Source: Frankiales bacterium
GTDB taxonomy: Bacteria > Actinomycetota > Actinomycetes > Mycobacteriales > SCTD01
NCBI GenBank assembly: GCA_025965615.1
Contig: JAOPWP010000060.1
Span: forward strand, 1 to 33,169
Length of the DNA: 33,169 bases
Direction of reading: 5' to 3'
Both the position numbers and the translations under genes were made by a program. Shown piece by piece: positions 6,724 to 29,497 of this stretch (positions are counted from its first letter, which is position 1; each line of letters starts with the position of its first letter). The notes beneath the pieces are model-generated. The model saw only the letters and a list, made by a program, of their open reading frames with translations. It did no database searches and was not told where the DNA came from.

Positions 6724-6738
6724 AATGGTCAGGCCATT
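6724..6738. promoter_or_regulatory. FadR-type operator, copy 2 (badI-like operon)
   Basis: AATGGTCAGGCCATT has arms AATGG/CCATT and differs from the reverse strand of copy 1 (ATGGTCAGACCAT) by a single base across 13 positions. It begins one base after the predicted transcription start, a place suited to repression. Confidence 0.65.
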
Positions 6739-6799
6739 AGTCGACCTGCTCCGGCGCCCGTCCCGGCCGCCGTCCGCACTGCGAGAGGAACAGCACGAC

Positions 6800-12341: not shown

Positions 12342-13800
12342 GGGCAGTCCTCGCCGTCGACTCGGCGGACGAGGGCCACGCCTCGAGGGTGTTCAGGTAC
12401 AGGTCGTGGACCCGGATGACCGCCCGGTCGAGGTCGGCCTTCTTCCAGCCGGCCGTCGGGATCGGCTCGTGCACGAGGACCTCGATCCTGCCGGTGCGCG
12501 CGGTCCGGGCGTTGCGCCACATGAGCTCCCCTGCGTTGCGGATGACGATCGGGACGATCGGCACCCCCGCCTGCATCGCGAGGTGGAAGCCACCCTTCTT
12601 GAACTGCCCCACCGTCGGGGTGAGCGAGCGGGTCCCCTCCGGTGAGATGACGATGGAGATGCCCGCGGCGAGGCGGTCCGCCGCCTGCTGCAGCGCGGCC
12701 CGCGCCTGGGTGCTGTCGGCCCGGTCGACGAAGGCGAAGTCAGCCAGCGTCAGCAGCTGCCCGATCACCGGCACGCTCGCCGCCTCGCGCTTCGCCACGG
12801 CCGTGAAGCCCCCGCGCAGGATGGTCGTCGTGACGAGCAGGTCGATGAGGGCGCTCTGGTGGTTGATGAGGAACACCGCCGGCCGGTGCGACCACAGGTG
12901 CTGCTCACCCTCGACGTCGACGTCGACGTCTCCGACGGCTCCCGCGACGTGGGCGAACAGCGACGTGGCGAGGTCGATCCCGCGCCGGCGGTTGCGCCCG
13001 AGCACACCGACGCCGAGCCCGGCCGCCCCGGCGCCGATCAGGGTGCCGTACATGGCAGCGGTCCGGATGGCGGGCTTGGGGTCGAGGCGACCGGGTCCCC
13101 GGCGGAAGCGCAGGACCGGCCACCTGCTCTCCTCGGCGCGCGCAGCCAGGAGCGGCTGGGGGTTCACCGCGCAGGGCTGACCCACGGCTGACAGGAAGGG
13201 GATGTCCTCGTCGCCGTTGGCGTAGCCGTGCGCACGGGCGAGGTCGAGGCCGCGTGCCTCGGCGAACGCCGTCACAGCGGCCAGCTTTCCCGGACCCCAC
13301 AGGGTCCGACCCGAGATCCTGCCCGTGAGCAGCCCCCCGTCGCTCTCCAGCTCGGTGCACAGCACGTTCGGGATGCCGAGCTCCCGGGCCAGCGGCCGCA
13401 CCTGGAAGCGGGTGGCCGAGGTGGCCAGGGCGACCGTGTGCCCCTGGCGCTGGTGGGCCTTGACGACCCGCCAGGCCTCGTGGAACAGGGTCCCGGCGAT
13501 GACCTGGCTGAACAGCCGCTCGCCGAGCTCGTCGATGTCCTCGACCGGGCGACCGGCCCAGCCCGCGATGCCCCGGCTCATGAGGGCGACGAACTGGTCC
13601 TCCGAGAGGGGACCACCGCCGGTCGCACGCAGGGTGTGGAAGGCCTCGGCCAGCCCGATCTCGAAGTTGCGCAGGCGGTGCGAGTAGAGGGCGCCGGCCG
13701 AGTAGCCGTCGATGAGAGTGCCGTCGAAGTCGAAGAAGACAGCTGTCTGCGGCCCACTGGGACCTCGACGGATCTCCTCGACGAGCGCGTCGACCTTCAT
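12334..13800 (-). CDS. plsC: HAD-IB phosphatase fused to 1-acylglycerol-3-phosphate acyltransferase
   Basis: 488 residues, two domains. The N-terminal half is a HAD-IB (SerB-like) hydrolase: DFDGT (24-28; D24 nucleophile, D26 acid/base), LATSAT (125-130), K172 and YANGDEDIP (193-201). A hydrophobic stretch (about 247-267) links to a PlsC domain: NHQSALID (313-320), FVDRADS (357-363), SPEGTRS (387-393) and GVPIVPIVI (412-420). It matches the build of mycobacterial Rv2483c. The acyltransferase makes phosphatidate; the phosphatase substrate is unproven. In this operon a phosphatidate phosphatase is otherwise missing before the WS/DGAT, so dephosphorylation of phosphatidate or lysophosphatidate is attractive (inference). 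ATG 13800 overlaps the upstream hydrolase stop as ATGA; the frame's upstream extension has no similarity. Confidence 0.9.
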   Translation of the reverse strand: MKVDALVEEIRRGPSGPQTAVFFDFDGTLIDGYSAGALYSHRLRNFEIGLAEAFHTLRATGGGPLSEDQFVALMSRGIAGWAGRPVEDIDELGERLFSQVIAGTLFHEAWRVVKAHQRQGHTVALATSATRFQVRPLARELGIPNVLCTELESDGGLLTGRISGRTLWGPGKLAAVTAFAEARGLDLARAHGYANGDEDIPFLSAVGQPCAVNPQPLLAARAEESRWPVLRFRRGPGRLDPKPAIRTAAMYGTLIGAGAAGLGVGVLGRNRRRGIDLATSLFAHVAGAVGDVDVDVEGEQHLWSHRPAVFLINHQSALIDLLVTTTILRGGFTAVAKREAASVPVIGQLLTLADFAFVDRADSTQARAALQQAADRLAAGISIVISPEGTRSLTPTVGQFKKGGFHLAMQAGVPIVPIVIRNAGELMWRNARTARTGRIEVLVHEPIPTAGWKKADLDRAVIRVHDLYLNTLEAWPSSAESTARTAHG

Positions 13801-14801
13801 CCGGTGGCCCTCTTCTCCAGTTCGGGTGCTGCGCCCTCGACCGCCACGCCCAGGTGCGCCGCGACGGCCTCGCCCACCCGCTCCGGGGCCTGCAGCCACG
13901 GCGCGTGGCCCGCGCCGGCGAGGCGGATCAGGTGCAGGTCGCGCAGTGCGACGAGCGAGTCGGCGGCGAGCAGGGGGCGCATGAAGACGTCGTCGTCGCC
14001 CCAGACCGCGAGGGTCGGCTGGGGCAGCCTGCCCAGCTCGTCGGAGGTCAGAGCGACCCCCCCGCGCACGGAGCCCAGCTTGATGAGCGCCCGGAAGTAG
14101 CTCGCGACGCTCGGGGCGTAGTCCGCGCGCGTACCCAGGAGCATCGCCGCGGTCAGGAGGTCGTCCGACAGCCCGTCGAGAGCACCGACCCCGAGCGTCT
14201 GCTCGTTCGCCCGCACGAACGAACGTCGCGACATGGGCAGGGACAGCAGGCGACGCCCGACGCCCGGGACGGCGAGCACCTTCATGACGAAGCTCGGCTT
14301 GACCCCGACGAACCCGGCGCCGGGTGCCCCGAGCAGCACGAGACGCCGTACCCGTCCCGGCAGCTCGAGCGAGGCGTACAGGCCGATCTGGGCGCCGAGC
14401 GAGTGGCCGACGAGATCCACCTCCGCGATCCCCAGCCCGTCGAGGAGCCCGGACACGACGGCCACGGCGTAGTCGCGGAGCACGGAGCCCACGGGCAGGG
14501 TGCTGGCACCGGACAGGCCGTGCCCCGGCCAGTCGACCGCGATGACCTGCCGGGTGCCGAGGTAGGGAATCAGGGGCGCGGCGAGCACGGTCGCCGAGGC
14601 GACGCCGTGCAGCAGCAGGACCGGTGGCTCGTCGCCGCTCGCCGTGCCGAACACCGAGAGACGCACGTCGACCGGCCCGAGGGCCGTGTCGACCACGACG
14701 ATCCGCTCCTGCGGGTCAAGCCCGTAGTGCCCGTACGCGGCGCGCTCGGCGGAGCGGATCCGGGCGTCGAGGGCGGCCGGCGCCTCCGCGCGGCTCCTCA
14801 T
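13797..14801 (-). CDS. Alpha/beta hydrolase (lipase/esterase-like)
   Basis: 334 residues. Triad by motif: S134 in GHSLGA (132-137), acid within WGDDD (267-271), and H299 in GAGHAPWLQAPE. Oxyanion motif LHGVAS (64-69). No secretion signal. It resembles the generic epoxide-hydrolase/lipase branch; candidate roles are a lipase or acylglycerol hydrolase that balances the neighbouring acyltransferases. The start is ATG 14801, which overlaps the WS/DGAT stop as ATGA; the longer frame reaching 14876 is rejected because it would cover the DGAT C-terminus. The Mtb plsB2-plsC region also has an esterase gene beside its DGAT, so the association recurs. Confidence 0.86.
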   Translation of the reverse strand: MRSRAEAPAALDARIRSAERAAYGHYGLDPQERIVVVDTALGPVDVRLSVFGTASGDEPPVLLLHGVASATVLAAPLIPYLGTRQVIAVDWPGHGLSGASTLPVGSVLRDYAVAVVSGLLDGLGIAEVDLVGHSLGAQIGLYASLELPGRVRRLVLLGAPGAGFVGVKPSFVMKVLAVPGVGRRLLSLPMSRRSFVRANEQTLGVGALDGLSDDLLTAAMLLGTRADYAPSVASYFRALIKLGSVRGGVALTSDELGRLPQPTLAVWGDDDVFMRPLLAADSLVALRDLHLIRLAGAGHAPWLQAPERVGEAVAAHLGVAVEGAAPELEKRATG

Positions 14802-16237
14802 CCGCGTGCCGCCCGTCGGGGACGCGTCGCCGCACGGGTCGTCTCGAAGACCTCGTCGAAGCCCTCGGACAGGCACCGCTTGAGCACTTCGGGGTCGGGG
14901 ACGGCGTCAGGGTCGACGTTCAGCCCGAGGCAGCACGTCCCGGCATAGGTGATCATCGCGATCATCGCCGCGACGCCGGGCCGCGGACCGAGCGGGTACA
15001 TGCCCACGATCTCCTGGCCCGCGAGGAACACCGGCTGGGACAGGCCCCGGATGTTCGAGATCTGGACGTCGGACGCGGTCATGAGCTTGGCCGAGAGCTC
15101 GATGATCACCGAGGCGGGCAGTTTGGTGAGCGTGGGCGAGATCTGGTCGAGGAAGCCGATCGCGGGCTCCTCCCGCACCTCCAGGACGAACTCGCGCACC
15201 AGCTGCATGCGCACGACCGGATCGCGCTCGGACAGGGGCGCCGCGAACCGCGCACCGGCGAAGCGGTTGCCGCCCAGCGGGTCGTTGTCGCGCCGCAGGC
15301 TCACCGGCATCCCGATGGGGAGCCGCTCGACGGACGCGCCGTGGTGCTCGTGGTAGCGCCGGAGCCCGCCGAGGACAGCGGCGACGAACGCGTCGTTGAC
15401 GGAGGCTCCAGCGGCCTTGCCCGCAGCCCTGAGCTGGTCGAGAGGGACGTCGAGGACGATCAGCCGGTTGCCGACCCCACCGGACCCGCGCAGCAGGGGC
15501 GACCTGTCCACGTCGGGCGGCGCGAGCATGCGGCTGAGGGACTGTGCGTACCGCGCGACGCCACCCGTCGTGCGCACGGGGTCGGCGAGGGAACGCCCGA
15601 GGACCCGAACCGCACCCGACGAGCGCCGCACCAGCTCGGTCGGCGCTCCCGTGAGGCGTCGGCGCAGCCGGCTCCCGAGCAGACCCGCTGCGGTGAGCGG
15701 CTCCCCCGGGGCCGCCGCCAGGCCGATGACCGCTCCGCCCGGGTCCGCCGTGCTGCTGTGCGCCAGCGTGAGCAGCTGGATGAGACCCAGCCCGTCGGTG
15801 AGGCTGTGGTGGAACTTGAACAGGTACGCGGCCCGGCCGCCGGACAGCCCGGTCACCAGGATCGCCTCCCACGGCGGCCTGGCCCGGTCCAGCGGACGCC
15901 TCATCAGCGACTCGCACAGGGCCAGGAGCGCCTGCTCGTCGCCCGGGTCGTGGAGGCGTAGGGAGTGGACGTGGTGGTCCAGGTCGAAGTGGGGGTCCGG
16001 CGCCCAGGCCGGTTGCACCAGCGGCACCAGGGGCTCCACCACGCGCTCGCGCAGACGGGGCACCCGGGTCGTCGTACGGACGTGCGCCTCGCGGAAGCGC
16101 TGCCAGTCAGGCTCTCCCGCGAGCACCTCGAGCAGGATGCCGGTGGACCGGGTGCGGGGGTCTGGCTCGGACCGCCACATCAGCGCCTCCCAGGCGCTCA
16201 TGTCAGACGCTCCCCCCCACGTCTCGGTGTCAGTCAC
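14798..16237 (-). CDS. Wax ester synthase / acyl-CoA:diacylglycerol acyltransferase
   Basis: 479 residues of the WS/DGAT (Atf) family, which esterifies diacylglycerol or fatty alcohols with acyl-CoA to make storage lipid at the membrane or lipid-body surface. The active-site motif HHSLTDG is at 143-149, with the second His and Asp148 the catalytic pair. PLDRARPPWE (115-124) and the C-terminal ISNIRG...GPRPGVAAMI block are also family hallmarks. Length is normal (about 450-480). GTG 16237 overlaps the gpsA stop as GTGA. The order gpsA, DGAT, esterase, HAD-PlsC, PlsB puts the whole glycerolipid route in one transcript and resembles the mycobacterial Rv2482c-Rv2485c region (recalled, not computed). 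Confidence 0.93.
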   Translation of the reverse strand: MTDTETWGGASDMSAWEALMWRSEPDPRTRSTGILLEVLAGEPDWQRFREAHVRTTTRVPRLRERVVEPLVPLVQPAWAPDPHFDLDHHVHSLRLHDPGDEQALLALCESLMRRPLDRARPPWEAILVTGLSGGRAAYLFKFHHSLTDGLGLIQLLTLAHSSTADPGGAVIGLAAAPGEPLTAAGLLGSRLRRRLTGAPTELVRRSSGAVRVLGRSLADPVRTTGGVARYAQSLSRMLAPPDVDRSPLLRGSGGVGNRLIVLDVPLDQLRAAGKAAGASVNDAFVAAVLGGLRRYHEHHGASVERLPIGMPVSLRRDNDPLGGNRFAGARFAAPLSERDPVVRMQLVREFVLEVREEPAIGFLDQISPTLTKLPASVIIELSAKLMTASDVQISNIRGLSQPVFLAGQEIVGMYPLGPRPGVAAMIAMITYAGTCCLGLNVDPDAVPDPEVLKRCLSEGFDEVFETTRAATRPRRAARG

Positions 16238-17271
16238 CAGGCATCTCCCTTGGTCTCATGGCCGGGCGGCCTGCGGAGCAGTCCCCGGTAGGCGTCCTGG
16301 GCCGTGGCGTCGGCGTTGACCACCGCATCGACCTCACGCGCGATGGGCAGCTCGACCCCCGCGTCGGCGGCCAGCTTGATCGCGACCGAGCTGGTCTTGA
16401 CGCCCTCGGCGACCTGCCGCATCCCGGCGAGCACCTCCGCGATCGTGCGTCCCCGTCCGAGCTGCTCACCGACGTACCGGTTGCGGCTGTGCGGGCTCGT
16501 GCAGGTCACGATCAGGTCGCCGACCCCGGCGAGGCCGGAGAAGGTCTCGCGCTCACCGCCGAGGGCCTGACCGAGGATGCTCATCTCACGGGCGGCCCGG
16601 GTCATGACCATGGCCTTGGTGTTGAACCCGGCGCCGGCGCCGTCCGCCATCCCGACCGCGATGGCGTAGACGTTCTTGAGCGCACCGGCGATCTCCACTC
16701 CGATCACGTCGGTGGTCGAGTAGATGCGGAACAGCGACGTGCGGAACAGGTCAGCCAGGCGAGCGGCCGTGCCCTCGTCCGGCATCGCGAGGGTCGCGGC
16801 GGCGGCGTAGCCCGTCATCACCTCGATGGCGATGTTGGGACCCGCCAGCGCACCTGCCGGGTGGCCGGGCAGGACGTCGGCGATGACCTCGGTCATCCGC
16901 TTCTGGGTGTCGAGCTCGAGGCCCTTGGCCAGGCTCACCACCGGGACCCAGGGTCGGACCATCGGTGCGATCTGCTCCAGCACGCCTCGCAGTCCCTGGG
17001 AGGGAACGGCGCAGACGAGGACGTCGGCCTCGCTCACAGCCTCCTCGAGCGAGCTCGTGGCGAGCAGCGACGGGGGCAGCGAGATGTCCGGCAGGTAGGT
17101 GCTGTTGGTGTGCTGCGCGCTCACCTCGTGGGCGACGGCCGCTGAGCGGGCCCACAGCACGGTCGGGGAGCTCTGCGCTGCGATGGAGGCCATCGTCGTC
17201 CCCCACGACCCCGCTCCCAGCACAGCCACCCGGGGCTGGCGGCGAGGGAGCGGAGCCGCGCCACTGCTCAT
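16234..17271 (-). CDS. gpsA: NAD(P)+-dependent glycerol-3-phosphate dehydrogenase
   Basis: 345 residues. It reduces dihydroxyacetone phosphate to sn-glycerol 3-phosphate, the acceptor for PlsB. Motifs: dinucleotide site LGAGSWGT (18-25), SLAKGLE (113-119), AGPNIAIE (143-150), the catalytic Lys199 in GALKNVYAIAVGM and D251 in GVGDLIVTCTS, and NRYVGEQLGRG. Length is standard. ATG 17271 overlaps the stop of the preceding gene as ATGA. The frame is open much further upstream, but that part is a shadow of the unknown-function and kinase genes, not a fused domain. Actinomycetes usually carry another gpsA elsewhere, so this may be a dedicated copy for storage lipid (inference). Confidence 0.95.
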   Translation of the reverse strand: MSSGAAPLPRRQPRVAVLGAGSWGTTMASIAAQSSPTVLWARSAAVAHEVSAQHTNSTYLPDISLPPSLLATSSLEEAVSEADVLVCAVPSQGLRGVLEQIAPMVRPWVPVVSLAKGLELDTQKRMTEVIADVLPGHPAGALAGPNIAIEVMTGYAAAATLAMPDEGTAARLADLFRTSLFRIYSTTDVIGVEIAGALKNVYAIAVGMADGAGAGFNTKAMVMTRAAREMSILGQALGGERETFSGLAGVGDLIVTCTSPHSRNRYVGEQLGRGRTIAEVLAGMRQVAEGVKTSSVAIKLAADAGVELPIAREVDAVVNADATAQDAYRGLLRRPPGHETKGDAW

Positions 17272-18281
17272 GGCAGCGTGGGGCAGTAGGTGTAGGAGCT
17301 GCTGCGCGTGTGGGCGAACTCGAAGATGCCGAGCCCGGGCCGGCCGTCCCAGGTGAAGGCGGCCAGGCGGTCGGTCAGCGAGGAGTCCAGCGTCCGGGGG
17401 GACACCGATCCGTCCAGCGGGTAGGTGTCGTGCTCCAGGTGGTCCCGGCCGGCCGGCTTGCCGTGGTGACCGCCGTAGCCGCCGCCCGACATGAAACCGC
17501 CGCCGGCCGAGGCGTCGGCGTCGATGCGGTAGGTCGCGCCCGCCTGCGTGCGCACCTCGACGGTGCCGCCCTTGAGGTCGAGGTCGTCGGTGAACTGCAG
17601 GTCGTGCAGCACGTCGACGATCGGGTCCAGCTCCCCGGACTCGTGCATGACGGCGCCCTCGAGGAGCAGCCGTCCCTGGCTGCGGTCCTCGACCAGGAGG
17701 AAGCCGACGGACCGGTCGTCGAACTGCGCCTGGTACCAGATGTGCAACCCCTGGCCGCCGGACATGGTGCGCACACCGCGCGAGCGGTCCCGCTGCCCGT
17801 ACCAGCCGTCGACCTGCTGCTGGATGCCGTCGATGGTGAGAGTGCCCGTGTAGTAGCCGGACTGGAACAGGTGGTCGAAGGCCGCGGTCACCGACTCGCC
17901 CTGCTTGACGGCCACCTCGCCGAACCAGGCCGGCGCGCGGGCGCGCCACTCCAGGTCGAACTCGAGCCCGGTCGGGTTGGGCCCGAGGCGCACGTGCCAC
18001 GTCTGCATCGGCTCCACGACGCGCCAGGAGAACGGGCCCGCGCTCGTGCCGTCCGTCGCGCTCAGCTCGGTCGAGAAGCGCACGTTCCGCTGCTCGGTGT
18101 CCGTCACCAGGATCGCGAAGCCGTCGACGGTGTCCTTCGGCGGGTAGATGCCGAGGCCGAACAGGATCGACGGGGACGCCGAGTCCCTCGAGTGCAGGTT
18201 GAACACGAAGCGGTCGAAGAACCGCTCCGGCAGGCCCTTCGCGTCGGGCGCGACCAGCTCGTCGTGGAACTCCTGCGTCAT
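17268..18281 (-). CDS. Protein of unknown function, beta-rich (possibly lipocalin/AttH-like)
   Basis: 337 residues, no signal peptide or membrane span. The sequence is rich in predicted beta strands with many W, Y and F and repeated DG turns. Notable blocks are FGLGIYPPKD (41-50), SGYYTGTLTIDG (141-152), YGQRDRSRGVR (161-171) and a Gly/His-rich stretch near 259-274. The pattern recalls the two-barrel AttH/CrtC-type lipocalin fold, which binds hydrophobic ligands, but that is a tentative impression and I do not recognise an experimentally studied member. ATG 18281 overlaps the kinase-like gene stop as ATGA and its own stop overlaps gpsA, so it is locked between an APH-like kinase and glycerolipid genes. 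A role as carrier, hydratase or isomerase for a lipid-like intermediate is possible. Confidence 0.75.
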   Translation of the reverse strand: MTQEFHDELVAPDAKGLPERFFDRFVFNLHSRDSASPSILFGLGIYPPKDTVDGFAILVTDTEQRNVRFSTELSATDGTSAGPFSWRVVEPMQTWHVRLGPNPTGLEFDLEWRARAPAWFGEVAVKQGESVTAAFDHLFQSGYYTGTLTIDGIQQQVDGWYGQRDRSRGVRTMSGGQGLHIWYQAQFDDRSVGFLLVEDRSQGRLLLEGAVMHESGELDPIVDVLHDLQFTDDLDLKGGTVEVRTQAGATYRIDADASAGGGFMSGGGYGGHHGKPAGRDHLEHDTYPLDGSVSPRTLDSSLTDRLAAFTWDGRPGLGIFEFAHTRSSSYTYCPTLP

Positions 18282-19345
18282 GCGTCCTCCAGGACCTGGT
18301 CCGGCTCCGGCGGCGCCGGAGCGAGCGGGATGCCGGCGGTGCGGTGCGCCGCGTCGAGAAAGCGCTGCACCAACGACGGGTCGGCGTAGTAGGGGTCGCC
18401 TTCGCCGCGCACCGCGCGCCGGCGTCCGTACTCGTAGAGCACGGCGAGCTTCCACAGGGCCAGCGCGCTGTACCAGTCCAGCTGGGACAGGTCGCGGCCC
18501 GTGCGCTCGGCGTAGCGCTGGGCCAGCTCGCTCCGGGTCGGGTAGCCGTCCTCGAGCAGCGCGGTCCCGAGCTCCTCGGTCGGTGTGAGCCCCTGGCCCG
18601 CCTCGGGGACGGAGGCCAGGAAGTAGCCGACGTCGAACAGCGGGTCGCCGAGCGTGGCGAGCTCCCAGTCCAGGACCGCCTCGACGCGCCCCGGAGCGCA
18701 TGCGGACAGGACGACGTTCCCGAGCCGGTAGTCGTTGTGGACGATCGCGGCACCGGACTCGGTGGGGACCCGCTCGTGCAGCCAGCGGTCGATGTCGGCG
18801 AAGTGCCGCGGGGGCCGGCCCTCCGGGTCGGCGACGAGGTGGCCCATGCGGCGCAGGTGCCGGCCGTTGAACCCTTCCGGGCGTCCGAGGTCCTCGAGGC
18901 CGGCTGCCCTCCAGTCGACGGCGTGCAGCTCGACCAGGGTGTCGATCAGCGCGTAGCCCACCTCTCGACGCGTTCCAGGCGTGTCCAGCGGCGGGGGGGT
19001 CCGGGTCGTGACGACCGGCCCGGAGGCGAAGCTCATGACGTAGAACGGGACGTCCAGGACCACCCCGGCCTCCGCGGTCGCCAGCACCCGGGCGACGGGG
19101 ACCGCGCTGTCCGCGAGCGCGGCGACGAGGCGGGCCTCCCGCAGCATGTCGTGCGCGCCCGGGGGCGTCGGGGGCGGCGGCGGGCGGCGGACCACGACGT
19201 CGCGCGTGCCGTCGGAGACCAGGAAGGTGAGGTTGGAGTGCCCGTCCCCGATGCGCTTCGCGGTCACCGGCCCGTCGCACAGGTGCCGCTCGCGCAGGAA
19301 GGCTCCGAGCGATGCGAGCGTCTCCGGTGTCCAGTCCCAGACCAC
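18278..19345 (-). CDS. APH-family phosphotransferase (ACAD10/11 kinase-domain type)
   Basis: 355 residues with a protein-kinase-like fold. The catalytic loop HNDYRLGN (203-210, D205) and the metal-binding LDWELATLGDP (225-235) match the kinase domain fused to acyl-CoA dehydrogenase in ACAD10/11, rather than antibiotic-modifying enzymes. The N-lobe VVVRRP (50-55) has Arg where many relatives have Lys. It sits between two crotonases and the unknown-function gene. The likely job is phosphorylation of a hydroxyacyl-CoA intermediate, which prepares a hydroxyl for elimination; this rests on characterised relatives, not on the sequence alone. GTG 19345 begins 6 bases after the preceding stop. A proline run occurs at 55-62. 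Confidence 0.82.
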   Translation of the reverse strand: MVWDWTPETLASLGAFLRERHLCDGPVTAKRIGDGHSNLTFLVSDGTRDVVVRRPPPPPTPPGAHDMLREARLVAALADSAVPVARVLATAEAGVVLDVPFYVMSFASGPVVTTRTPPPLDTPGTRREVGYALIDTLVELHAVDWRAAGLEDLGRPEGFNGRHLRRMGHLVADPEGRPPRHFADIDRWLHERVPTESGAAIVHNDYRLGNVVLSACAPGRVEAVLDWELATLGDPLFDVGYFLASVPEAGQGLTPTEELGTALLEDGYPTRSELAQRYAERTGRDLSQLDWYSALALWKLAVLYEYGRRRAVRGEGDPYYADPSLVQRFLDAAHRTAGIPLAPAPPEPDQVLEDA

Positions 19346-19351
19346 CTCAGC

Positions 19352-20203
19352 TCACCGCCCGGTGAACCGGGGAGGACGCTGCTCCTTGAACGCGGCGAGC
19401 GCCTCGGGCATGTCGTCGGTCTGCGCCAGCAGGGCCTGACCGCGGTTCTCGAGCTCCAGGGCCGCCTTGTACGACGTGATCTCCTGGTTCCGCTGGATGG
19501 CCCGCTTGGACATGCGCACTCCGCCAGGGGAGTTGGTGGCGATGAGCCTGGCCGTTGCGAGTGCCTCGTCGAAGAGCTGGTCGGTCGGCACCATCCGGTT
19601 CGCCAGGCCGATCCGGACGGCCTCGTCGGCCCCGACGATCCGTCCGCTGAAGCCGATCTCGGCCGCACGGCCGGGCCCGATCAGGCGGGGGAGGGTGTAC
19701 GACGTGCCCAGCTCCCCCATCGACAGGCCCACCTTGATGAACGCCGCGCTGAACTTGGCCGTCGGTGCCACGAGCCGGATGTCTGCGGCCAGGGCAAGGG
19801 CCAGGCCACCGCCGGTGGCGGGGCCGTGGATGGCCGCGATGACGGGGAACGGGAGGTGCCGGATCGCGGCGATCCCACCGGCCGCCGTCTCCTGGAACTT
19901 CAGGAAGTCGCGGACGCCCATGCGGGTGATGGTCTCGATCTCGTCGAGGTCGAAGCCCGGGCAGAACGCACGCTCTCCCGTCCCGGTCAGGATGAGCGCG
20001 CGGACGTCGCTGTCCCGGAGCGCCTGCGCGGCCAGGCCGTACTCGGTGAACATCCGCTCGGTCTGGGAGTTCATCCGCTCGGGGCGGTTCATGCGCAGCA
20101 CCGCGACGTCGTCGAGGACCTCGAGCGAGAGCGTCGACAGCTCGACCACCCGTACGCCGGCCGCCATGGTGGTGGTGTCCAGCACTGCTGACACGCCGCT
20201 CAC
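19352..20203 (-). CDS. Enoyl-CoA hydratase/isomerase-family protein (paralogue B)
   Basis: 283 residues (about 271 if an internal ATG at 20167, reading MAAGVRVVELS, is used). Crotonase fold with oxyanion-hole regions ERAFCPGFDL (77-86) and HGPATGGGLALAL (126-138). The two hydratase glutamates are absent: the GGGxE position is Ala135 and the PE position is Phe155. Instead E164 in SMGELGTSYTLPRL lies where enoyl-CoA isomerases carry their acidic residue. An isomerase or other proton-shuttling reaction is therefore likelier than simple hydration. Its C-terminal 60 residues are nearly the same as those of the upstream gene, showing tandem duplication. GTG 20203 overlaps the upstream stop as GTGA. 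Confidence 0.87.
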   Translation of the reverse strand: MSGVSAVLDTTTMAAGVRVVELSTLSLEVLDDVAVLRMNRPERMNSQTERMFTEYGLAAQALRDSDVRALILTGTGERAFCPGFDLDEIETITRMGVRDFLKFQETAAGGIAAIRHLPFPVIAAIHGPATGGGLALALAADIRLVAPTAKFSAAFIKVGLSMGELGTSYTLPRLIGPGRAAEIGFSGRIVGADEAVRIGLANRMVPTDQLFDEALATARLIATNSPGGVRMSKRAIQRNQEITSYKAALELENRGQALLAQTDDMPEALAAFKEQRPPRFTGR

Positions 20204-21012
20204 CGCCCCGTGAAGACGGGCTCGCGGCGCTCCTTGAAGGCGGCGAGCGCTTCGGGCATGTCGCTGCCGCGCGTCAGGAGCGCCTGGCCGCGGTTCTCCA
20301 GCTCGAGAGCGGCTGCGTAGGAGGAGATCTCCATGTTGGCCTGCAGCGCCCGCTTGGACAGCTGGACCCCGCCCGGGGAGTTCGCGACGATCGTGCGCGC
20401 CATCGCGACGGCGTCGTCCAGCAGGTCGTCAGGCTGGCTGACGCCGTTCACGAGGCCGATCGTCAGCGCCTCGTCCGCCAGGACGAACCGCCCCGTGAAG
20501 CAGACCTCGCTGGCGACGGCAGGCCCGACCAGCCGGGTGAGCAGCCAGGAGACCCCGAGGTCGCCTGCGGACAGGCCGATGCGGACGAAGGCGGCGTTGA
20601 ACTTCACGCTCGTCGACGCGAGGCGGATGTCCGCAGCCAGCGCCAGCGAGAACCCGCCTCCTGCTGCCGCACCGTTGACCGCAGCGATGACCGGCACCCG
20701 CATCGACCGCACCGCGAGCAGGGCCCGTGCCGCGCGCTCCTGCTGCGCGAGCATCCCCATCGCCCCGAGGCTCGGGAGGTCGTCGGCGTCCGCGAGGTCG
20801 TAGCCGGAGCAGAACGCCTTCCCCGACCCGGTCAGGATGACGACACGCAGGGCGTCCTCGGCGTCGAGCGCCGCCGCCACGCGCTCGAGTTCGTCGAACA
20901 TCTCGTTCGTCATCGCGTTGTAGCGGGCAGGCCGGTTGAGCGCCAGGACGACGACTCCCGGCGTGGGCTCGCTGAGCAGCAGCGTCTGGTACGTCTCGGA
21001 CAGGACCTTCAC
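20200..21012 (-). CDS. Enoyl-CoA hydratase/isomerase-family protein (paralogue A)
   Basis: 270 residues. Crotonase fold with GKAFCSGYDLADAD (64-77) and NGAAAGGGFSLAL (113-125). As in its neighbour, the canonical hydratase Glu positions are Ser122 and Phe142, and an acidic residue (D151 in SAGDLGVSWLLTRL) is in the isomerase-like place. The shared tail reads NSPGGV.LSKRA, then ALELENRGQALL, MPEALAAFKE and FTGR. AGGAG lies six bases before GTG 21012. The gap to the LivF stop upstream is 54 bases without a hairpin or an evident promoter, so the gene is probably read from the importer promoter. Confidence 0.88.
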   Translation of the reverse strand: MKVLSETYQTLLLSEPTPGVVVLALNRPARYNAMTNEMFDELERVAAALDAEDALRVVILTGSGKAFCSGYDLADADDLPSLGAMGMLAQQERAARALLAVRSMRVPVIAAVNGAAAGGGFSLALAADIRLASTSVKFNAAFVRIGLSAGDLGVSWLLTRLVGPAVASEVCFTGRFVLADEALTIGLVNGVSQPDDLLDDAVAMARTIVANSPGGVQLSKRALQANMEISSYAAALELENRGQALLTRGSDMPEALAAFKERREPVFTGR

Positions 21013-21066: not shown

Positions 21067-21759
21067 CTACAGGGCGATGAGCTCCTGCACGGCCCGCGAC
21101 TTGAGGTCGCTCACCGGGCCGGACTGGACGAGCTCGCCGCTGCGCAGGGCGAGGAAGCGGTCTGCCAGCTCCTGGATCATGGCGATGTGCTGCTCGACGA
21201 GCAGGAGCGCCGTCCCCCGGCTCTGGATCTCGCGGAGGGCCGCCATCAGCTGGTCGATGACGACGGGCGCCAGGCCCTCCGTCGGCTCGTCCAGCATGAG
21301 CAGCAGCGGTTCGGCCATGAGCGCCCGCCCGATCGCGAGCATCTGCTGCTCGCCACCGCTCAGGGCGGTGCCGTGGCGGTCGGAACCGCGGGCCAGGTTC
21401 GGGAACAGCTCGTACACCGACTCGAGGGACCACTGCCCCTTGCGCCCTGAGGCGCGACCGAGCAGGAGGTTCTCCTCGACGGACAGGTTCGGGAAGATCC
21501 GCTTCCCCTGAGGGACGAGGGACACGCCGCGGGTCGTGGCCTCGTAGCCCTTGGAGCCCAGCTTCTTCCCATCGACGAGGATCTCACCCCGGACGGTGGG
21601 CACGCCGTAGACCGACATCAGCGTGGTCGACTTTCCGGCGCCGTTGCGGCCGACCAACCCGACCGTCTCCCCGGGCGCGATGGAGAAGGAGACGCCCTGG
21701 AGCACCACCGCCCCGCCGTACCCCGCGTGCACGTCGCGGAACTCGAGGACGGCGGTCAT
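21067..21759 (-). CDS. livF: Branched-chain amino-acid-type ABC transporter ATP-binding protein LivF
   Basis: 230 residues. Walker A GRNGAGKST (37-45), Q-loop VPQGKRIFPNLSVEENL (82-98), signature LSGGEQQ (133-139), Walker B LLLMLDEP (152-159) and a switch His in VEQH. The IFPNLSVEENL stretch is diagnostic for LivF. Its ATG overlaps the LivG stop as ATGA; the frame's 57-codon upstream extension is a shadow of livG. With LivG it powers the LivHM channel. Liv-type systems in catabolic clusters often carry organic acids rather than amino acids. Confidence 0.93.
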   Translation of the reverse strand: MTAVLEFRDVHAGYGGAVVLQGVSFSIAPGETVGLVGRNGAGKSTTLMSVYGVPTVRGEILVDGKKLGSKGYEATTRGVSLVPQGKRIFPNLSVEENLLLGRASGRKGQWSLESVYELFPNLARGSDRHGTALSGGEQQMLAIGRALMAEPLLLMLDEPTEGLAPVVIDQLMAALREIQSRGTALLLVEQHIAMIQELADRFLALRSGELVQSGPVSDLKSRAVQELIAL

Positions 21760-22457
21760 GCGGCACTCCCGAGGTAGGCCTTGATGACGTTGTCGTCGGC
21801 GCGGACCTCTGCCGGCGTACCGGTGGTGAGGACCCGGCCCAGGTCGAGGACGGTGATCACGTCGCAGGTGCGGAACACGCCCTCGACGTCGTGCTCGACC
21901 AGCAGTGCCGCGACGTTGCGCTCCTGGCACAGGTCCCGCACGTGCTGCAGCATCTTCACCGACTCGCTGTTCACGAGCCCTGCGCAGGGCTCGTCGAGCA
22001 ACACCACCCTGGGGCTCCCGATGAGGGAGATGGCCAGGTCGACGGATCGCTGTGTGCCGTAGGCGATCTCGCTGCAGATCTCGTCGAGGCTCTCCTCGAG
22101 CCCGAGGGCAGACACGATGCCCTCGAGGTCAGGCTCGGCATTGCGCCGGGCGACCATGTTGAGCTGCTGGCGCACCGTCATCGACCCGAAGACGGACGTC
22201 CGCTGGAACGACCGCGAGATGCCGTGCTCGCGGCGCCAGCGGATCGAGCGGGTCGTGATGTCCTCGCCCTCGAGCTTGACGCTGCCCGAGGTGAGCTTCT
22301 TGCGACCGGACAGGGCGTCGATGAAGGTCGACTTGCCGGCACCGTTGGGGCCGATCACACCGTGCACGAGCCCGGGTGTCAAGGTGATGGCCACGTCGCT
22401 GAGCGCGGCCAGCGCGCCGTACCGCACCGTCACCCCGGTGGCCTCGAAGATGGTCAT
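21756..22457 (-). CDS. livG: Branched-chain amino-acid-type ABC transporter ATP-binding protein LivG
   Basis: 233 residues from ATG 22457, which overlaps the LivM stop as ATGA. Walker A GPNGAGKST (36-44), Q-loop ISRSFQRTSVF (80-90), Walker B VVLLDEPCAGL (151-161) and switch His in VEHD. The signature reads IAYGTQRSVDLA (131-142) rather than LSGGQ or the LSYGEQ usual for LivG, a divergent but apparently functional version. Compared with LivF it is the second ATPase half. Confidence 0.92.
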   Translation of the reverse strand: MTIFEATGVTVRYGALAALSDVAITLTPGLVHGVIGPNGAGKSTFIDALSGRKKLTSGSVKLEGEDITTRSIRWRREHGISRSFQRTSVFGSMTVRQQLNMVARRNAEPDLEGIVSALGLEESLDEICSEIAYGTQRSVDLAISLIGSPRVVLLDEPCAGLVNSESVKMLQHVRDLCQERNVAALLVEHDVEGVFRTCDVITVLDLGRVLTTGTPAEVRADDNVIKAYLGSAA

Positions 22458-23515
22458 CGTCCGCCCCCTCTGCGTGCGCCGATCGGGAGGCGCCGCCACA
22501 GGCGCTGCAGCCCGCCTGTGATGCCGCCTGGCAGGAACATGAGGACCAGGATCAGAGCGAGACCGGTGTAGAGGTGCAGGTTCCCGGAGTCGTTGAACTC
22601 CGACTGGGCGTAGATGTACAGGGCCGCACCCACGACCGGCCCCACGAGCGTGCCGAGCCCGCCGACGATGGCGGCGATCAGGGAGTCACCGGCGGTCGCG
22701 AAGCCCAGCAGTTCGGGCGACACGAACCGGCTGTTCAGCGCGAACAGGGCGCCACCCACGGCGGCCACTGCCCCCGAGATGACGAAGGCGATGAGGCGGG
22801 GCACGAACGTCCCGTAGCCGGAGAAGCGCATGCGCTCCTCGTTCTCGCGGATCCCTTCGAGGGTGGTGCCGAAGCGGGACCGACCGACGACCCAGAGGGC
22901 GACAGCTGCGAGGACCAGGCAGCTCCACGCGACGGGCCAGAACAGCCCCGGATCGCCGACCTCTGCCCGGGTCAGGCCGAGGAACCGGGCGTCGGCCGGG
23001 TAGGAGACCTGCAGTCCGTCGAAGGCACCCGTGACGGGCCGGGACGACGTCTGCACGGTGAGCGAGTACAGCGCCTGGCCCAGTGCCAGCGTCAGCATCA
23101 GGAAGCCCATGCCCGACGCGCGCACGACGAGCGCCCCGAAGAGCACCGCGAGCAGCGTCGCCGCCAGCACCGCGACCGCAGCCGCCCGCATCGGGCCCCA
23201 GTCCCAGTGCGTCGTCGTCATCGCGACCATGTACGCGGATCCGCCGAAGAAGGCCGTGTGCCCCAGGCTGATCAGCCCGAGGTGACGGGCCAGGAAGCCC
23301 AGGGAGAGCGCCAGCAGAGCCAGGATCACGGCGTCCAGGGCCAGGCTCATGATGAAGGGGTCGCTCGTGATGAACGGCACCGTCAGCCCCAGCCCGAACG
23401 TGGCGGCGGCCACTGCGGCCCCGATCAGCCAGCCCCGGCGCGAGGTGGACGCCGGGACTGCAGGCGCCTCGACGGCGGCGGGCAGGTCGTGCGTCGACGT
23501 GGTCGAAGCCGTCAT
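22454..23515 (-). CDS. livM: Branched-chain amino-acid-type ABC transporter permease LivM
   Basis: 353 residues with about nine or ten hydrophobic segments and a polar N-terminal tail of about 25 residues. The family motif LGLISLGHTAFFG follows the early helices and the cytoplasmic coupling loop GIRENEERMRFSGY precedes the last group of helices. ATG 23515 overlaps the LivH stop. It forms the inner-membrane channel with LivH. Confidence 0.92.
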   Translation of the reverse strand: MTASTTSTHDLPAAVEAPAVPASTSRRGWLIGAAVAAATFGLGLTVPFITSDPFIMSLALDAVILALLALSLGFLARHLGLISLGHTAFFGGSAYMVAMTTTHWDWGPMRAAAVAVLAATLLAVLFGALVVRASGMGFLMLTLALGQALYSLTVQTSSRPVTGAFDGLQVSYPADARFLGLTRAEVGDPGLFWPVAWSCLVLAAVALWVVGRSRFGTTLEGIRENEERMRFSGYGTFVPRLIAFVISGAVAAVGGALFALNSRFVSPELLGFATAGDSLIAAIVGGLGTLVGPVVGAALYIYAQSEFNDSGNLHLYTGLALILVLMFLPGGITGGLQRLWRRLPIGARRGGGR

Positions 23516-24366
23516 GCGGCTCTCCGTCCGGCGAGGCCCGTCGGCCGCAGCAGCAGCACGAGCACGAGGGCGAGGTAAGGGATGACGACGGCGATGCTCG
23601 GCGAGATCGTGGTGCCGACCGTCTGGGCGATGCCGAGGCCCATGCCGGCCACCATCGCCCCACCGATGCTCCCGACGCCTCCGATGACCACGACGATCAG
23701 CACCGTGATGAGGATGCCGGCCCCCATTCCGGGGTCGAGCGACACGTAGGGGACGGCGAGGGTGCCGGCGAGCCCCGCGAGGGCCGCGCCGAGCGCGACG
23801 ACGAACAGGCTGACCCGGTCGACGTTGATGCCCATGATCGAGGCCGTCTCGAGGTCGTGGCTCGCGGCCCGGATGTGCAGGCCGCGCTCGCTGCGGCTGA
23901 GGTAGAGCACGAGGGCGCTCGCCATGGCGAGCGCCGCGACGATGACGAACAGCCGGTAGGTCGGGTAGTTCGTCCCGAGGACCGAGATGGAGCCGCTGAG
24001 CGCCGACGGCGGGTCGGCCGACAGGGTGCGCTCGCCCCAGATGAGGACGACGATGCGCTCTCCCACCAGGGCCAGGCCGAAGGTGACCAGGCCGACCTCG
24101 ATGTGCGACCTGTGCTCGAGCCGCCGGAAGAAGACCAGCTCGAGCACGACCCCGACGGCGGCGAGCACGACGGGGACCACCAGGAGGGCCACCCAGAACG
24201 ACAGCCTCGTGCCCACCGAGTAGGCGACGTAGGCGCCGACCATGTAGAGGGCGCCGTGGGCGAAGTTCGTGACCCCACGCAGCCCGTAGATCATCGCAAG
24301 GCCGGAGCTGAGCACCATGAGCAGGGAGCCGAGAGCGACTCCGTTCAGCACTTCCGCGATGCTCAT
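23512..24366 (-). CDS. livH: Branched-chain amino-acid-type ABC transporter permease LivH
   Basis: 284 residues, about eight membrane helices. N-terminal GLRGVTNFAHGALYMVGAY is the LivH hallmark (normally GxxNFAHG), and the coupling loop ERGLHIRAASHDLETASIMGI (about residues 163-184) contacts the ATPases. The start ATG 24366 has a GGAGGA box six bases upstream. A strong hairpin separates it from the binding-protein gene. Confidence 0.93.
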   Translation of the reverse strand: MSIAEVLNGVALGSLLMVLSSGLAMIYGLRGVTNFAHGALYMVGAYVAYSVGTRLSFWVALLVVPVVLAAVGVVLELVFFRRLEHRSHIEVGLVTFGLALVGERIVVLIWGERTLSADPPSALSGSISVLGTNYPTYRLFVIVAALAMASALVLYLSRSERGLHIRAASHDLETASIMGINVDRVSLFVVALGAALAGLAGTLAVPYVSLDPGMGAGILITVLIVVVIGGVGSIGGAMVAGMGLGIAQTVGTTISPSIAVVIPYLALVLVLLLRPTGLAGRRAA

Positions 24367-24391
24367 GACGTCCTCCGGGTTCGGCGGGCCC

Positions 24392-24423
24392 GGTCCGCGG
24401 CCTGCATGCGCAGGCCGCGGACC
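24392..24423 (-). terminator. Strong stem-loop between binding-protein and livH genes
   Basis: Perfect 14-base arms (GGTCCGCGGCCTGC and its complement) around the four-base loop ATGC, between the binding-protein stop and the livH start, 19 bases after the former. There is no T-run on the minus strand, so it is probably a partial terminator or 3'-end stabiliser that keeps binding-protein mRNA in excess over the channel genes, as known for other ABC importer operons. Confidence 0.75.
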
Positions 24424-24442
24424 AGCGAGTCGGTCAAGGCCG

Positions 24443-25678
24443 TCAGATCTTGCACTCGGGGTTGGCCGGCGGCGTGATGGCCGGACCGTCTCCGGACGCC
24501 ACGATCTTGAACGCCTTGCTGGTGCCGGTGCCTTCGACCTTGCCGACGTAGGACGGGCGCACCACCTGGTGGTCGGCGCCGCGGACGGTGACCTTGCCGG
24601 TGATGCTGTCGAAGGACAGGTCCTTCAGCGCGTCCCGGACCTTGATGGGGTCACCGTTGGTGGCCTTCTCGATGCCGGCGAACAGCGTCTGGGCCGCCAG
24701 GTAGGCGTCCGCAGGCACGTAGTACGGCTTGCTGCCGTTGGCCTTCTCGTAGGCCGCGACGAACTCCTTGTTGGAGGGGTTGTCCAGCGCCACGTTGTAG
24801 CCGACGTTGTTGTAGAAGCCCGACACGACGTCGCCGAGGACCGGGAACAGGGGCTCGGAGACCATGTTGAAGCCGAGCACCGTCTTGAACTTGGCCGGCA
24901 GGTTGAACTGCTGGGCCTGCTTGACGAAGGCGACGCCGTCGGCGCCGTACTCCACCGCGAACAGGGCGTCGGCCTGGCTGCTCTGCAGCTTGGTGATGTT
25001 GGAGCCGAAGTCGGTCGTGTTGAGCGGTGCGAACTGCTCGAGCACGACCTCCTTGCCGGCCTTCTTCGCCGCAGCCTTGAAGACCGCGGCCGCGTCGTGA
25101 CCGGTCACGTAGTCGACAGCCTGGATGGCCCACTTCTGGCCGGGCAGGTCCTTGAGGCTCTCGCCCAGGGCGTTGATGTCCATCTTGTTGGTCTGGACGA
25201 CGTGGAAGGCGTTCGCCGCGCACTGCTTGCCGATCAGGTCGTCGGCCTTGCCGAGCGAGTTGAAGGACAGCGCCCCCAGCGACTCGAGCTGGAGGTTGAG
25301 CGCACCGTGCTCGGGTGAGGTCATCACCGAGCCGATGAACTTGGCGCCCTTCTGCGTGACAGCCTCACGAGCCGCGCGCAGCGTGCTGTCGGCGGTGGCG
25401 TCGGTGCTGAGCTCGACCAGCTCGATCTGGTGTCCCGCGACGCCGCCCTTGGCGTTGACGAGGGCGACGGCGACCTTCCACCCCTTCACCGAGTCGCTCC
25501 CGAACTGGGCCAGGGCTCCGGTCGACGGCGGGATGAGGGCGACCTTGATGGCCTCCTTGGGCCCGGACGCAGCTGACTTCCCCTCGGTGGAGGCCGAGTC
25601 GGTGGTGCTCGACCCGCAGGCAGTGACGACGGCGCTCAGAGCGAGCACACCGATCGCGCGCTTGACGTTCCTTCTCAT
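24443..25678 (-). CDS. livK: Liv-type ABC transporter substrate-binding lipoprotein
   Basis: 411 residues from ATG 25678 (MRRNVKRAIG). Lipoprotein signal peptide with positive N-region, hydrophobic core LALSAVV and lipobox VTAC, lipidated Cys21, then a Ser/Thr-rich linker. The mature part is a type-I periplasmic-binding fold: IPPSTGALAQFGSDSVKG (start of lobe 1), GPVMTSP-like loop GSVMTSPEH, GYNVAL, YVPADAYLAAQ and a C-terminal RGADHQ motif seen in Liv-type proteins. Two further cysteines (CAANAF region and the last CKI) may pair. It is the first gene of the long operon, under the promoter at 25728-25756. The ligand cannot be told; an organic acid or its fragment is likely given the catabolic context. 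Confidence 0.92.
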   Translation of the reverse strand: MRRNVKRAIGVLALSAVVTACGSSTTDSASTEGKSAASGPKEAIKVALIPPSTGALAQFGSDSVKGWKVAVALVNAKGGVAGHQIELVELSTDATADSTLRAAREAVTQKGAKFIGSVMTSPEHGALNLQLESLGALSFNSLGKADDLIGKQCAANAFHVVQTNKMDINALGESLKDLPGQKWAIQAVDYVTGHDAAAVFKAAAKKAGKEVVLEQFAPLNTTDFGSNITKLQSSQADALFAVEYGADGVAFVKQAQQFNLPAKFKTVLGFNMVSEPLFPVLGDVVSGFYNNVGYNVALDNPSNKEFVAAYEKANGSKPYYVPADAYLAAQTLFAGIEKATNGDPIKVRDALKDLSFDSITGKVTVRGADHQVVRPSYVGKVEGTGTSKAFKIVASGDGPAITPPANPECKI

Positions 25679-25727
25679 GTGCAGAACCCCTACTGGTCGG
25701 CTGGCCTCGGTTGCTGTGGTGCAAGAC

Positions 25728-25756
25728 ACACTAGTTTGGTCAGACCGTTTGCACAA
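25728..25756 (-). promoter_or_regulatory. Promoter of the importer/lipid operon
   Basis: On the minus strand TTGTGC (25751-25756), a 17-base spacer and TAGTGT (25728-25733) make a plausible sigma-70-type promoter; transcription would begin near 25721, 43 bases before the binding-protein ATG, with AGGGG as ribosome binding site. The spacer is almost wholly taken up by the FadR-type palindrome. Confidence 0.6.
25735..25750. promoter_or_regulatory. FadR-type operator, copy 3 (importer operon)
   Basis: TTTGGTCAGACCGTTT contains the core GGTCAGACC shared with copies 1 and 2. It lies precisely between -35 and -10, so binding would exclude RNA polymerase. One outer base (G in place of A) breaks the full TGGTC/GACCA symmetry. 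Confidence 0.65.
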
Positions 25757-25828: not shown

Positions 25829-26881
25829 TCAGCCGGGGGGAGAGAGGGACGACCGCTGCGCGCGGAACGCGTCGACGATCTGCAGCGTCGCGGCCTCGAG
25901 CTGCGGCGGCGTGAGGCCCCAGGCGGGGGCGACGAGCGCGAGGTGGTCGTACTCCCCCGCGTGCTGCGCGACACGGCTGACGAGCTCGTCAGGTCGACAG
26001 GCCACGGCGATCGCGTCGACAGCCTCGTCCGGCACCGCGCTGATGAGCGCCTGCCCGTCGCCTGCCCGGGCGGCGGCCCGGATCGTGTCCTGGGCCTGCG
26101 ACCAGCCGTGCAGCGCGAAGAGCCGGTCGTAGACCCTGGACGCTGCGTACTGGCCTATGGCGAAGGCGACTCGGTCCCTGGCGACCTGCTCGTCGTCGTC
26201 CACCGCGCACATGAGGATGCCCATGCGGGCGACGTCCGACCTGGAGCGGCCAGCGGCCTCGGTGGCGCCGGTCAGCTCGGGCTCCACCACCTCGTGGACG
26301 TACTTCCGGGTGAACATCGGGTGCCCGACCAAGCCGTCCGCCACCCGTCCCACGACGCGCATCATCAGCGGGTTGATCCCCGCGATCCAGATCGGGAGCC
26401 GCTCCTGCAGGGGTGGTGCGCTGTCCGACGTCGGCTTGAGGTCCAGGTGGTAGAAGCGGCCCTCGTGCTCCACGGGTCCCTCGTGCAGCCGCCACAGCTT
26501 GCGCAGGACCTCGACCAGCTCCTCCATGCGCACGGCAGGAGCCTCACCGGAGACGCCGTGCCAGTCCCTCATCATCGTCGCGGTCCCGTTGCCGAGTCCC
26601 AGGGTGAGGCGACCACCCGACAGGTCGTCCAGGTCGCGCGCCTCCGCGGCCCACATGAGAGGGGATCGCCCTACTCCGTAGGCGATGTTCGACCCGATGC
26701 GCACGCGCTCGGTCGCGAGGGCGTAGACGGCCATCGGGACGGTGGCCGAGCGGTTGTAGAGCTCGCTGGTCCAGACCGAGTCGAAGCCCGCCTCCTCTGC
26801 GGCAGCGGCCAGGGCCGCGCCGCGGCGGAAGCGCTCGGGACCCTCCCCGCTCGCGAGAACCGTCATCCCGTAGGTGGTCAT
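25829..26881 (-). CDS. LLM-class oxidoreductase, probably F420-dependent
   Basis: 350 residues, luciferase-like TIM barrel. Typical blocks are AAAAEEAGFDSVWTSELYNR (25-44), TERVRIGSNIAYGVGRSPLMWA (in strand 3 region), DLSGGRLTLGLGNG (the GRxxLGLGxG motif) and PIWIAGINPLMMRVVGRVADGLVGHPM. In actinobacteria such proteins usually use coenzyme F420, but a flavin cannot be excluded. It probably oxidises or reduces a CoA-ester or hydroxyl intermediate of the same pathway. ATG 26881 overlaps the racemase stop as ATGA; the 12-codon extension upstream is rejected. A 150-base control region follows before the importer genes. Confidence 0.88.
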   Translation of the reverse strand: MTTYGMTVLASGEGPERFRRGAALAAAAEEAGFDSVWTSELYNRSATVPMAVYALATERVRIGSNIAYGVGRSPLMWAAEARDLDDLSGGRLTLGLGNGTATMMRDWHGVSGEAPAVRMEELVEVLRKLWRLHEGPVEHEGRFYHLDLKPTSDSAPPLQERLPIWIAGINPLMMRVVGRVADGLVGHPMFTRKYVHEVVEPELTGATEAAGRSRSDVARMGILMCAVDDDEQVARDRVAFAIGQYAASRVYDRLFALHGWSQAQDTIRAAARAGDGQALISAVPDEAVDAIAVACRPDELVSRVAQHAGEYDHLALVAPAWGLTPPQLEAATLQIVDAFRAQRSSLSPPG

Positions 26882-29377: not shown

Positions 29378-29497
29378 GTGGCCTGCGTCCCTTCGGCTGG
29401 CTCCGGTGGTGAGCCGGAAGGTACGAGGCCAGGACGTCGCCGCCCAGCGCGGTCGACCCGGCGACTGTCGACTCCTCCAGCGAGGACCACGACGGGG

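Follow-up and report, generated by a model that had tools for sequence, protein, structure and literature searches.

A pair of adjoining genes in a Frankiales bacterium probably encodes a two-enzyme ATP-dependent dehydratase that serves the breakdown of p-menthane monoterpenoid acids. The pair, an APH-fold kinase (kinase 2) and a 337-aa protein of the Rv3169 family, lies on contig JAOPWP010000060.1 (assembly GCA_025965615.1), whose positions 1 to 33,169 are the whole stretch analysed here and are called the window. Dehydration by a kinase plus a lyase, a chemistry drawn from characterised homologues, is strongly favoured; a p-menthane substrate, that is, a tertiary-alcohol acid such as oleuropeate, has slightly more for it than against it, and we infer it from gene association. 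The evidence consists of gene content, gene order, homology and active-site motifs. The pair and two crotonase genes form a four-gene core:

17268-18281, minus strand: putative phospho-lyase, 337 aa (Rv3169 family, DUF7064; homologue of 25-phosphosteroid lyase, 25-PSL), from NF053593, the 25-PSL profile and Foldseek.
18278-19345, minus strand: APH-fold kinase 2 (ACAD11-type), 355 aa, from Pfam APH (E 2e-41), PDB matches and catalytic motifs.
19352-20203, minus strand: crotonase A, atypical, with a GLSMGE motif, from Pfam ECH_1 (E 6e-51) and alignment against canonical hydratases.
20200-21012, minus strand: crotonase B, atypical, with a GLSAGD motif, from Pfam ECH_1 (E 8e-53) and alignments.

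The 337-aa protein had been introduced in a preliminary description as an unknown, beta-rich protein within 18278-21012. Its size and beta-rich character stand; its gene lies outside that range, and it belongs to a named family, matching NCBIfam NF053593 (Rv3169_fam) at 208.5 bits, above the curated cut-off of 150, and Pfam DUF7064 at 41.8 (cut-off 24.7). A PDB sequence search returned 25-PSL as the sole match (E 2e-17, about 22% identity). A profile built from 16 members of the family matched 25-PSL (9fzn) at E 5.4e-94 over positions 2-336 of 355, its full length, as the sole high-significance match; kievitone hydratase (7a0q) matched weakly. The most conserved stretch of the family, RDRSxGxR, is common to 25-PSL and reads GQRDRSRGVR in the window protein (residues 162-171). 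An AlphaFold model built with three sequences is of low confidence (pLDDT 56), and its fold match is used as support only: the top five Foldseek matches of this model are 25-PSL chains (9g4c/9fzn/9g2i; E 7e-18 to 2e-17), and kievitone hydratase, AttH and pericyclases stand below them. Judged from sequence, the protein is a 25-PSL homologue within the 25-PSL sequence and fold family; identity of about 22% leaves the substrate of the putative lyase unfixed.

Kinase 2 had been recognised by its LDWELATLGDP motif and called the second kinase of its kind in this stretch; both points hold, the other APH kinase being encoded at 29498-30568. Together with VHNDYRLGN this motif provides intact HxDxxxxN and DxE elements, invariant in all orthologues. 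The PDB ranking runs from 9o56 (E 1e-48) through 3dxp (E 1e-37), ACAD11 8v3v (E 1e-27) and 9fsg to 3ats (E 1e-7); 9fsg is taken here to be the 25-hydroxysteroid kinase, and 3ats is Rv3168. The score of 9fsg is 75 bits, against 147-219 for ACAD11 chains, 3dxp and 9o56. By these comparisons kinase 2 is related to the ACAD11-type hydroxyacyl-CoA kinases, with their APH fold, intact motifs and closeness to ACAD11, and this makes the hydroxyacyl-CoA substrate proposed earlier plausible. It lacks the fused or adjoining acyl-CoA dehydrogenase (ACAD) of the ACAD10/11 type; its neighbours are the crotonases and the DUF7064 protein. The earlier remark that no dehydrogenase stands beside it is right for adjoining genes, and two ACAD genes do occur in the same cluster (7602-8735, 28142-29377), the closest more than 8 kb away. 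A dedicated non-flavin lyase probably stands in for the ACAD partner, explaining the missing dehydrogenase.

Pairing of kinase and lyase extends far beyond the window. Among 37 distinct Rv3169-family genes of Mycobacteriales outside the window's clade, 33 lie within 1.5 kb of an APH-fold kinase gene, where about 0.6 would be expected by chance given 7 to 39 APH genes per genome. Proteobacterial plasmids (L084, L123, L124) carry kinase-lyase pairs too. This constant pairing fits a phosphorylated substrate and so argues for the kinase-lyase reading. On an M. paragordonae plasmid (L082), a kinase 2 orthologue (58%) adjoins a different, distant DUF7064 protein, which occupies the lyase slot between the kinase and crotonase A.

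Several plasmids carry further family members. A Rhodococcus ruber plasmid has two more kinase and DUF7064 pairs (L126:12405-16481; L125:2463-4685), one adjoining a CYP108-family P450. The lyase gene of R. opacus B4 plasmid pROB02 is split in two frames and unannotated (L081:20001-21007), and it is intact in a closely matching stretch of an S8 plasmid (L078:20001-21017). On the R. opacus plasmids a further Rv3169-family gene adjoins a gene of the ecdysteroid-22-kinase family, and genes for PEP-utilising-enzyme and pyruvate-phosphate-dikinase-like proteins are close by (L078:2919-17387); this region is possibly another alcohol phosphorylation route.

The proposed chemistry has precedent. Phosphorylation with subsequent phosphate elimination is described for 25-hydroxysteroids (PMC8449060, PMC7411048), on which a kinase and then a lyase act in Sterolibacterium denitrificans (PMC8449060, PMC11061730), and ACAD11-type kinases phosphorylate 4-hydroxyacyl-CoAs, from which the ACAD then expels phosphate (PMC12440821, PMC11342911). 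The dehydration is therefore not categorically new, and the earlier suggestion of a conversion not yet described has to be given up. Like the window pair, the Sterolibacterium system combines a kinase with a lyase of the same sequence family and removes a tertiary alcohol at the expense of ATP through a phosphoester (PMC8449060, PMC7411048). Unlike it, the window kinase falls on the ACAD11-like side of the APH fold; the window genes are clustered, whereas no lyase candidate lies near the S. denitrificans kinase gene (PMC8449060); and the setting is the breakdown of alicyclic acids, not the anaerobic breakdown of steroids. ACAD10/ACAD11 and the bacterial LvaA/LvaC likewise pair an APH-fold kinase acting on a hydroxyacyl-CoA with phosphate elimination (PMC12440821), but elimination there falls to a flavin-dependent ACAD, in the window to a non-flavin DUF7064 protein. 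In Mycobacterium tuberculosis the APH-fold gene Rv3168 (3ats) adjoins Rv3169, and both are co-regulated by Rv3167c (PMC5340868); the window proteins are remote family members (the kinase matches 3ats at E 1e-7) and are accompanied by crotonases and ring-cleavage genes. Finally, the mrc genes of Castellaniella defragrans cluster the BadI-like MrcE, the 2,4-dienoyl-CoA reductase MrcC and an ACAD for perillyl-CoA (PMC4109377), but no kinase-lyase step is reported for that pathway, which starts from limonene and has no tertiary alcohol to remove.

Conservation of the four-gene order was the point on which the preliminary description had staked its core, and the order does recur, beyond chance. Seven genomes (the window, L070, L074, L117, L118, L119 and L120), from five families of the genome set, have crotonase B, crotonase A, kinase and lyase in one contiguous run; in L073 and L079 the kinase and both crotonases are contiguous and the lyase lies apart. 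Lyase orthologues form a clear group at 59-72% identity, the next matches in the order standing near 32%; a 45% relative occurs on Pseudonocardia plasmids, and several copies are plasmid-borne. A search of 396 genomes drawn from the whole phylum found no further close lyase; the clade is therefore rare and patchily distributed. Not all starts and stops overlap, as had been stated: 4-nt overlaps join crotonase B to crotonase A (only with the longest-ORF start of the latter) and kinase 2 to the lyase, and crotonase A and kinase 2 are 6 nt apart. Since the chain continues through 4-nt overlaps from the lyase gene into gpsA and WS/DGAT, the core is not a separate unit in the window.

The two crotonases, correctly described as duplicates (54% mutual identity), are atypical. 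In five genomes, crotonases A and B carry other residues in place of the two catalytic glutamates of enoyl-CoA hydratases (GGGxE and PExxLG positions), and hydratases in the same loci keep both in alignment; by this two-glutamate criterion neither crotonase is an enoyl-CoA hydratase. An acid is retained in GLSAGD (B) and GLSMGE (A). From these residues a role as double-bond isomerases may be guessed, tentatively and with somewhat less for it than against it. The crotonases are accessories of the window's clade, because kinase-lyase pairs are common without them (e.g. L080, L126, L125, L084).

Genes for ring opening accompany the core, and three of them lie together in the window:

6725-7600, plus strand: BadI/MenB-like ring hydrolase, from TIGR03210 badI (339 bits); start uncertain, 6800 being an alternative.
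7602-8735, plus strand: acyl-CoA dehydrogenase linked to the BadI-like gene, from Pfam Acyl-CoA_dh, with 71-78% orthologues in L069, L073, L074 and L079.
8782-9675, plus strand: SDR, 2,4-dienoyl-CoA-reductase-like, from its best match NF005811 (224 bits, under the cut-off of 318).

The hydrolase reaches 338.8 bits against the TIGR03210 equivalog, below the cut-off of 467.6, and is therefore called BadI-like and not BadI proper. Orthologues at 75-89% occur in 10 other lyase-positive genomes; at an identity of at least 70% they are present in 11 of 12 lyase-positive genomes and in none of 15 controls (Fisher p 9e-7), the controls being hand-picked genomes negative for the lyase clade and the genomes not being fully independent (G386 and G314 belong to one genus). 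In relatives all three genes adjoin the core or lie close to it, the SDR at 73-82% in L118, L119, L073, L074 and L079. The window and its relatives cluster BadI-like and dienoyl-CoA-reductase-like genes, both below cut-off, with an ACAD gene, a set that may be of the mrc type by gene content. A second BadI-like gene (64%) was seen elsewhere in the window's genome (G000:C172:5602-6372; L170:5596-6426), with AMP-ligase and ACAD genes nearby.

Cytochrome P450 genes point in the same direction. CYP108-family P450s, at least 56% identical to an M. paragordonae enzyme, occur in 7 of the 12 lyase-positive genomes and in none of the controls (p 9e-4); in five genomes (G361, G589, G101, G386, G314) they share the contig of the lyase gene at a distance of 18 to 45 kb. 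Against P450terp the M. paragordonae enzyme scores 423 bits and that of R. ruber 467, and both score higher still against P450tol. CYP108N14 hydroxylates alpha-terpineol and 4-terpineol at C7 (PMC11279926), and terpineol degradation via oleuropeic acid is on record (PMC4109377). The P450 of R. opacus pROB02, in a layout like that of the terp operon, was considered as a P450terp and rejected, a CYP125-like enzyme being closer (302 vs 186 bits); CYP108 genes turned up on the plasmids of R. ruber and M. paragordonae instead.

The fullest arrangement is a locus of about 40 kb in G589 (L118, L168, L169), which unites a P450 and reductase, a ligase, the core, BadH- and BadI-like genes, HMG-CoA lyase, CoA-transferase and thiolase; matches of the ligase include cyclohexanecarboxylate-CoA ligase, below cut-off. 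The M. paragordonae plasmid also encodes methylmalonate-semialdehyde and 3-hydroxyisobutyrate dehydrogenases, both expected if the isopropyl end departs as isobutyryl- or methacrylyl-CoA. Two side observations concern the same loci. A methylmalonyl-CoA-mutase-family gene in the G589 locus (L169:14251-16119) could handle isobutyryl-CoA or 2-hydroxyisobutyryl-CoA as an end product and would then bear on whether the tertiary alcohol is lost early. A 2-hydroxyacyl-CoA dehydratase and its activase, usually genes of anaerobes, lie near the lyase on the plasmid of R. ruber, an aerobe (L079:24392-27897).

The pathway proposed from these associations would begin with a p-menthane tertiary-alcohol acid that is imported, or made by C7 oxidation (oleuropeate from alpha-terpineol), and then joined to CoA; for the window's genome, uptake by an ABC transporter and activation by a CaiB-type enzyme are proposed in place of the CYP108 route. 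Kinase 2 would move a phosphate from ATP onto the hydroxyl, most likely tertiary, of what is most likely the CoA-bound acid, and the lyase would expel the phosphate to leave an alkene. The crotonases may then shift the new double bond into conjugation, the dienoyl-CoA-reductase-like SDR would remove one double bond, and after hydration and oxidation the BadI-like enzyme would open the ring. The transporter and CoA-transferase candidates, and a separate kinase/ACAD pair, are the remaining listed features:

21067-25756, minus strand: branched-chain-amino-acid-type ABC transporter (substrate-binding protein, two permeases, two ATPases), from Pfam Peripla_BP_6, BPD_transp_2 and ABC_tran.
26878-28044, minus strand: CaiB-type CoA-transferase, from Pfam CoA_transf_3 (E 4e-90); a 70% orthologue adjoins the lyase gene in L069.
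28142-30568, minus strand: APH kinase 1 (29498-30568) and its acyl-CoA dehydrogenase (28142-29377).

On the minus strand the order is APH kinase 1, acyl-CoA dehydrogenase, CaiB CoA-transferase, F420/LLM oxidoreductase, ABC transporter, crotonase B, crotonase A, APH kinase 2, the 337-aa protein, GpsA, WS/DGAT, alpha/beta hydrolase, HAD-acyltransferase and GPAT. The transporter genes lie upstream of the core, and the second ATPase (21756-22499) was identified by reading the sequence. The kinase 1 gene lies 120 nt upstream of its ACAD gene; L073 has orthologues of both (56% and 72%), with the lyase gene 1.4 kb from the ACAD gene. The M. paragordonae core plasmid also carries GpsA, WS/DGAT, HAD-acyltransferase and GPAT homologues at 52-62% identity (window 10461-17271; L082:39488-40489; L083:10941-18204), and the island may be accompanied by a branch for glycerolipids or wax esters.

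Several observations weigh against a kinase-lyase dehydratase for p-menthane acids. The direct pairwise match to 25-PSL is modest and the AlphaFold model poor, and the fold superfamily also includes hydratases and other enzymes. The flanks of four Rv3169-family genes are free of kinase genes. When kinase and lyase are compared over nine genomes, their pairwise identities show only a weak correlation (Spearman 0.2), consistent with partner exchange, and co-evolution tried on this measure is not claimed. The R. opacus plasmid lyase lies far from any close kinase 2 orthologue, and its adjoining P450 is not CYP108. In the window's own genome there is no CYP108 match at E 1e-60, and the acid would therefore be imported or made otherwise there.

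The alternative that survives best, unlikely as it is, keeps the same kinase-lyase dehydration and changes the substrate, which would be a different alicyclic or isoprenoid acid, the side chain of a steroid, or a fatty acid with a gamma- or delta-hydroxyl. It draws on the steroid substrates of 25-PSL, the 4-hydroxyacyl-CoA substrates of ACAD11-type kinases (PMC12440821), the lack of a CYP108 match in the window's genome and the CYP125-like affinity of the pROB02 P450. The distribution of BadI-like and CYP108 genes across lyase-positive and control genomes stands against it, and a straight-chain hydroxy acid needs no ring-opening enzymes. Markedly less probable is that the 337-aa protein works as a hydratase or isomerase within the CrtC/kievitone-hydratase/AttH superfamily, the kinase being independent or regulating flux. 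The Foldseek list and the weak profile match to 7a0q agree with such an enzyme, but 25-PSL is far closer in both sequence and fold searches, RDRSxGxR is common to 25-PSL, and the kinase is a constant partner. Less probable still is the route first envisaged, an undescribed conversion of a hydroxyacyl-CoA with the key chemistry done by the crotonases and the 337-aa protein as an acyl-CoA binder: the crotonases are indeed conserved with the pair and lack the standard catalytic residues, but pairs without them are common. An aminoglycoside-type resistance enzyme in a catabolic cluster by accident, suggested by the APH fold, is hardly credible for kinase 2, as no resistance-family NCBIfam model matched it (its only NCBIfam match being a weak thiamine-kinase one, below cut-off), 3dxp and ACAD11 are closest apart from 9o56, and the linkage is conserved.

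The kinase-lyase dehydratase, if correctly read, appears to be a new combination of an ACAD11-like kinase, a 25-PSL-like lyase, paired crotonases and a ring-opening pathway. It also appears newly implied that the Rv3169 family as a whole consists of phospho-lyases; a literature search covering few subscription journals found no link of the family to this role. Evenly balanced between acceptance and doubt is the wider proposal that the Rv3169/DUF7064 family is a broad phospho-lyase class which, with APH-fold kinases, provides general ATP-driven dehydration of unreactive alcohols. The window's clade, with paired non-canonical crotonases, would then be adapted to CoA-bound monoterpenoid tertiary alcohols in aerobic actinobacteria, and the same logic would extend to Rv3168-Rv3169. 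A widespread family still labelled 'unknown' thereby gains a testable function, and with it Rv3169, the operon of which becomes strongly derepressed when a regulator is mutated in M. tuberculosis (PMC5340868). Dehydration by kinase and lyase, described in the anaerobic degradation of steroids, probably serves the aerobic degradation of terpenoids as well. To our knowledge, no enzyme is known for disposal of the tertiary alcohol of terpineol-type compounds in actinobacteria, and the pair described here is proposed as such a route.

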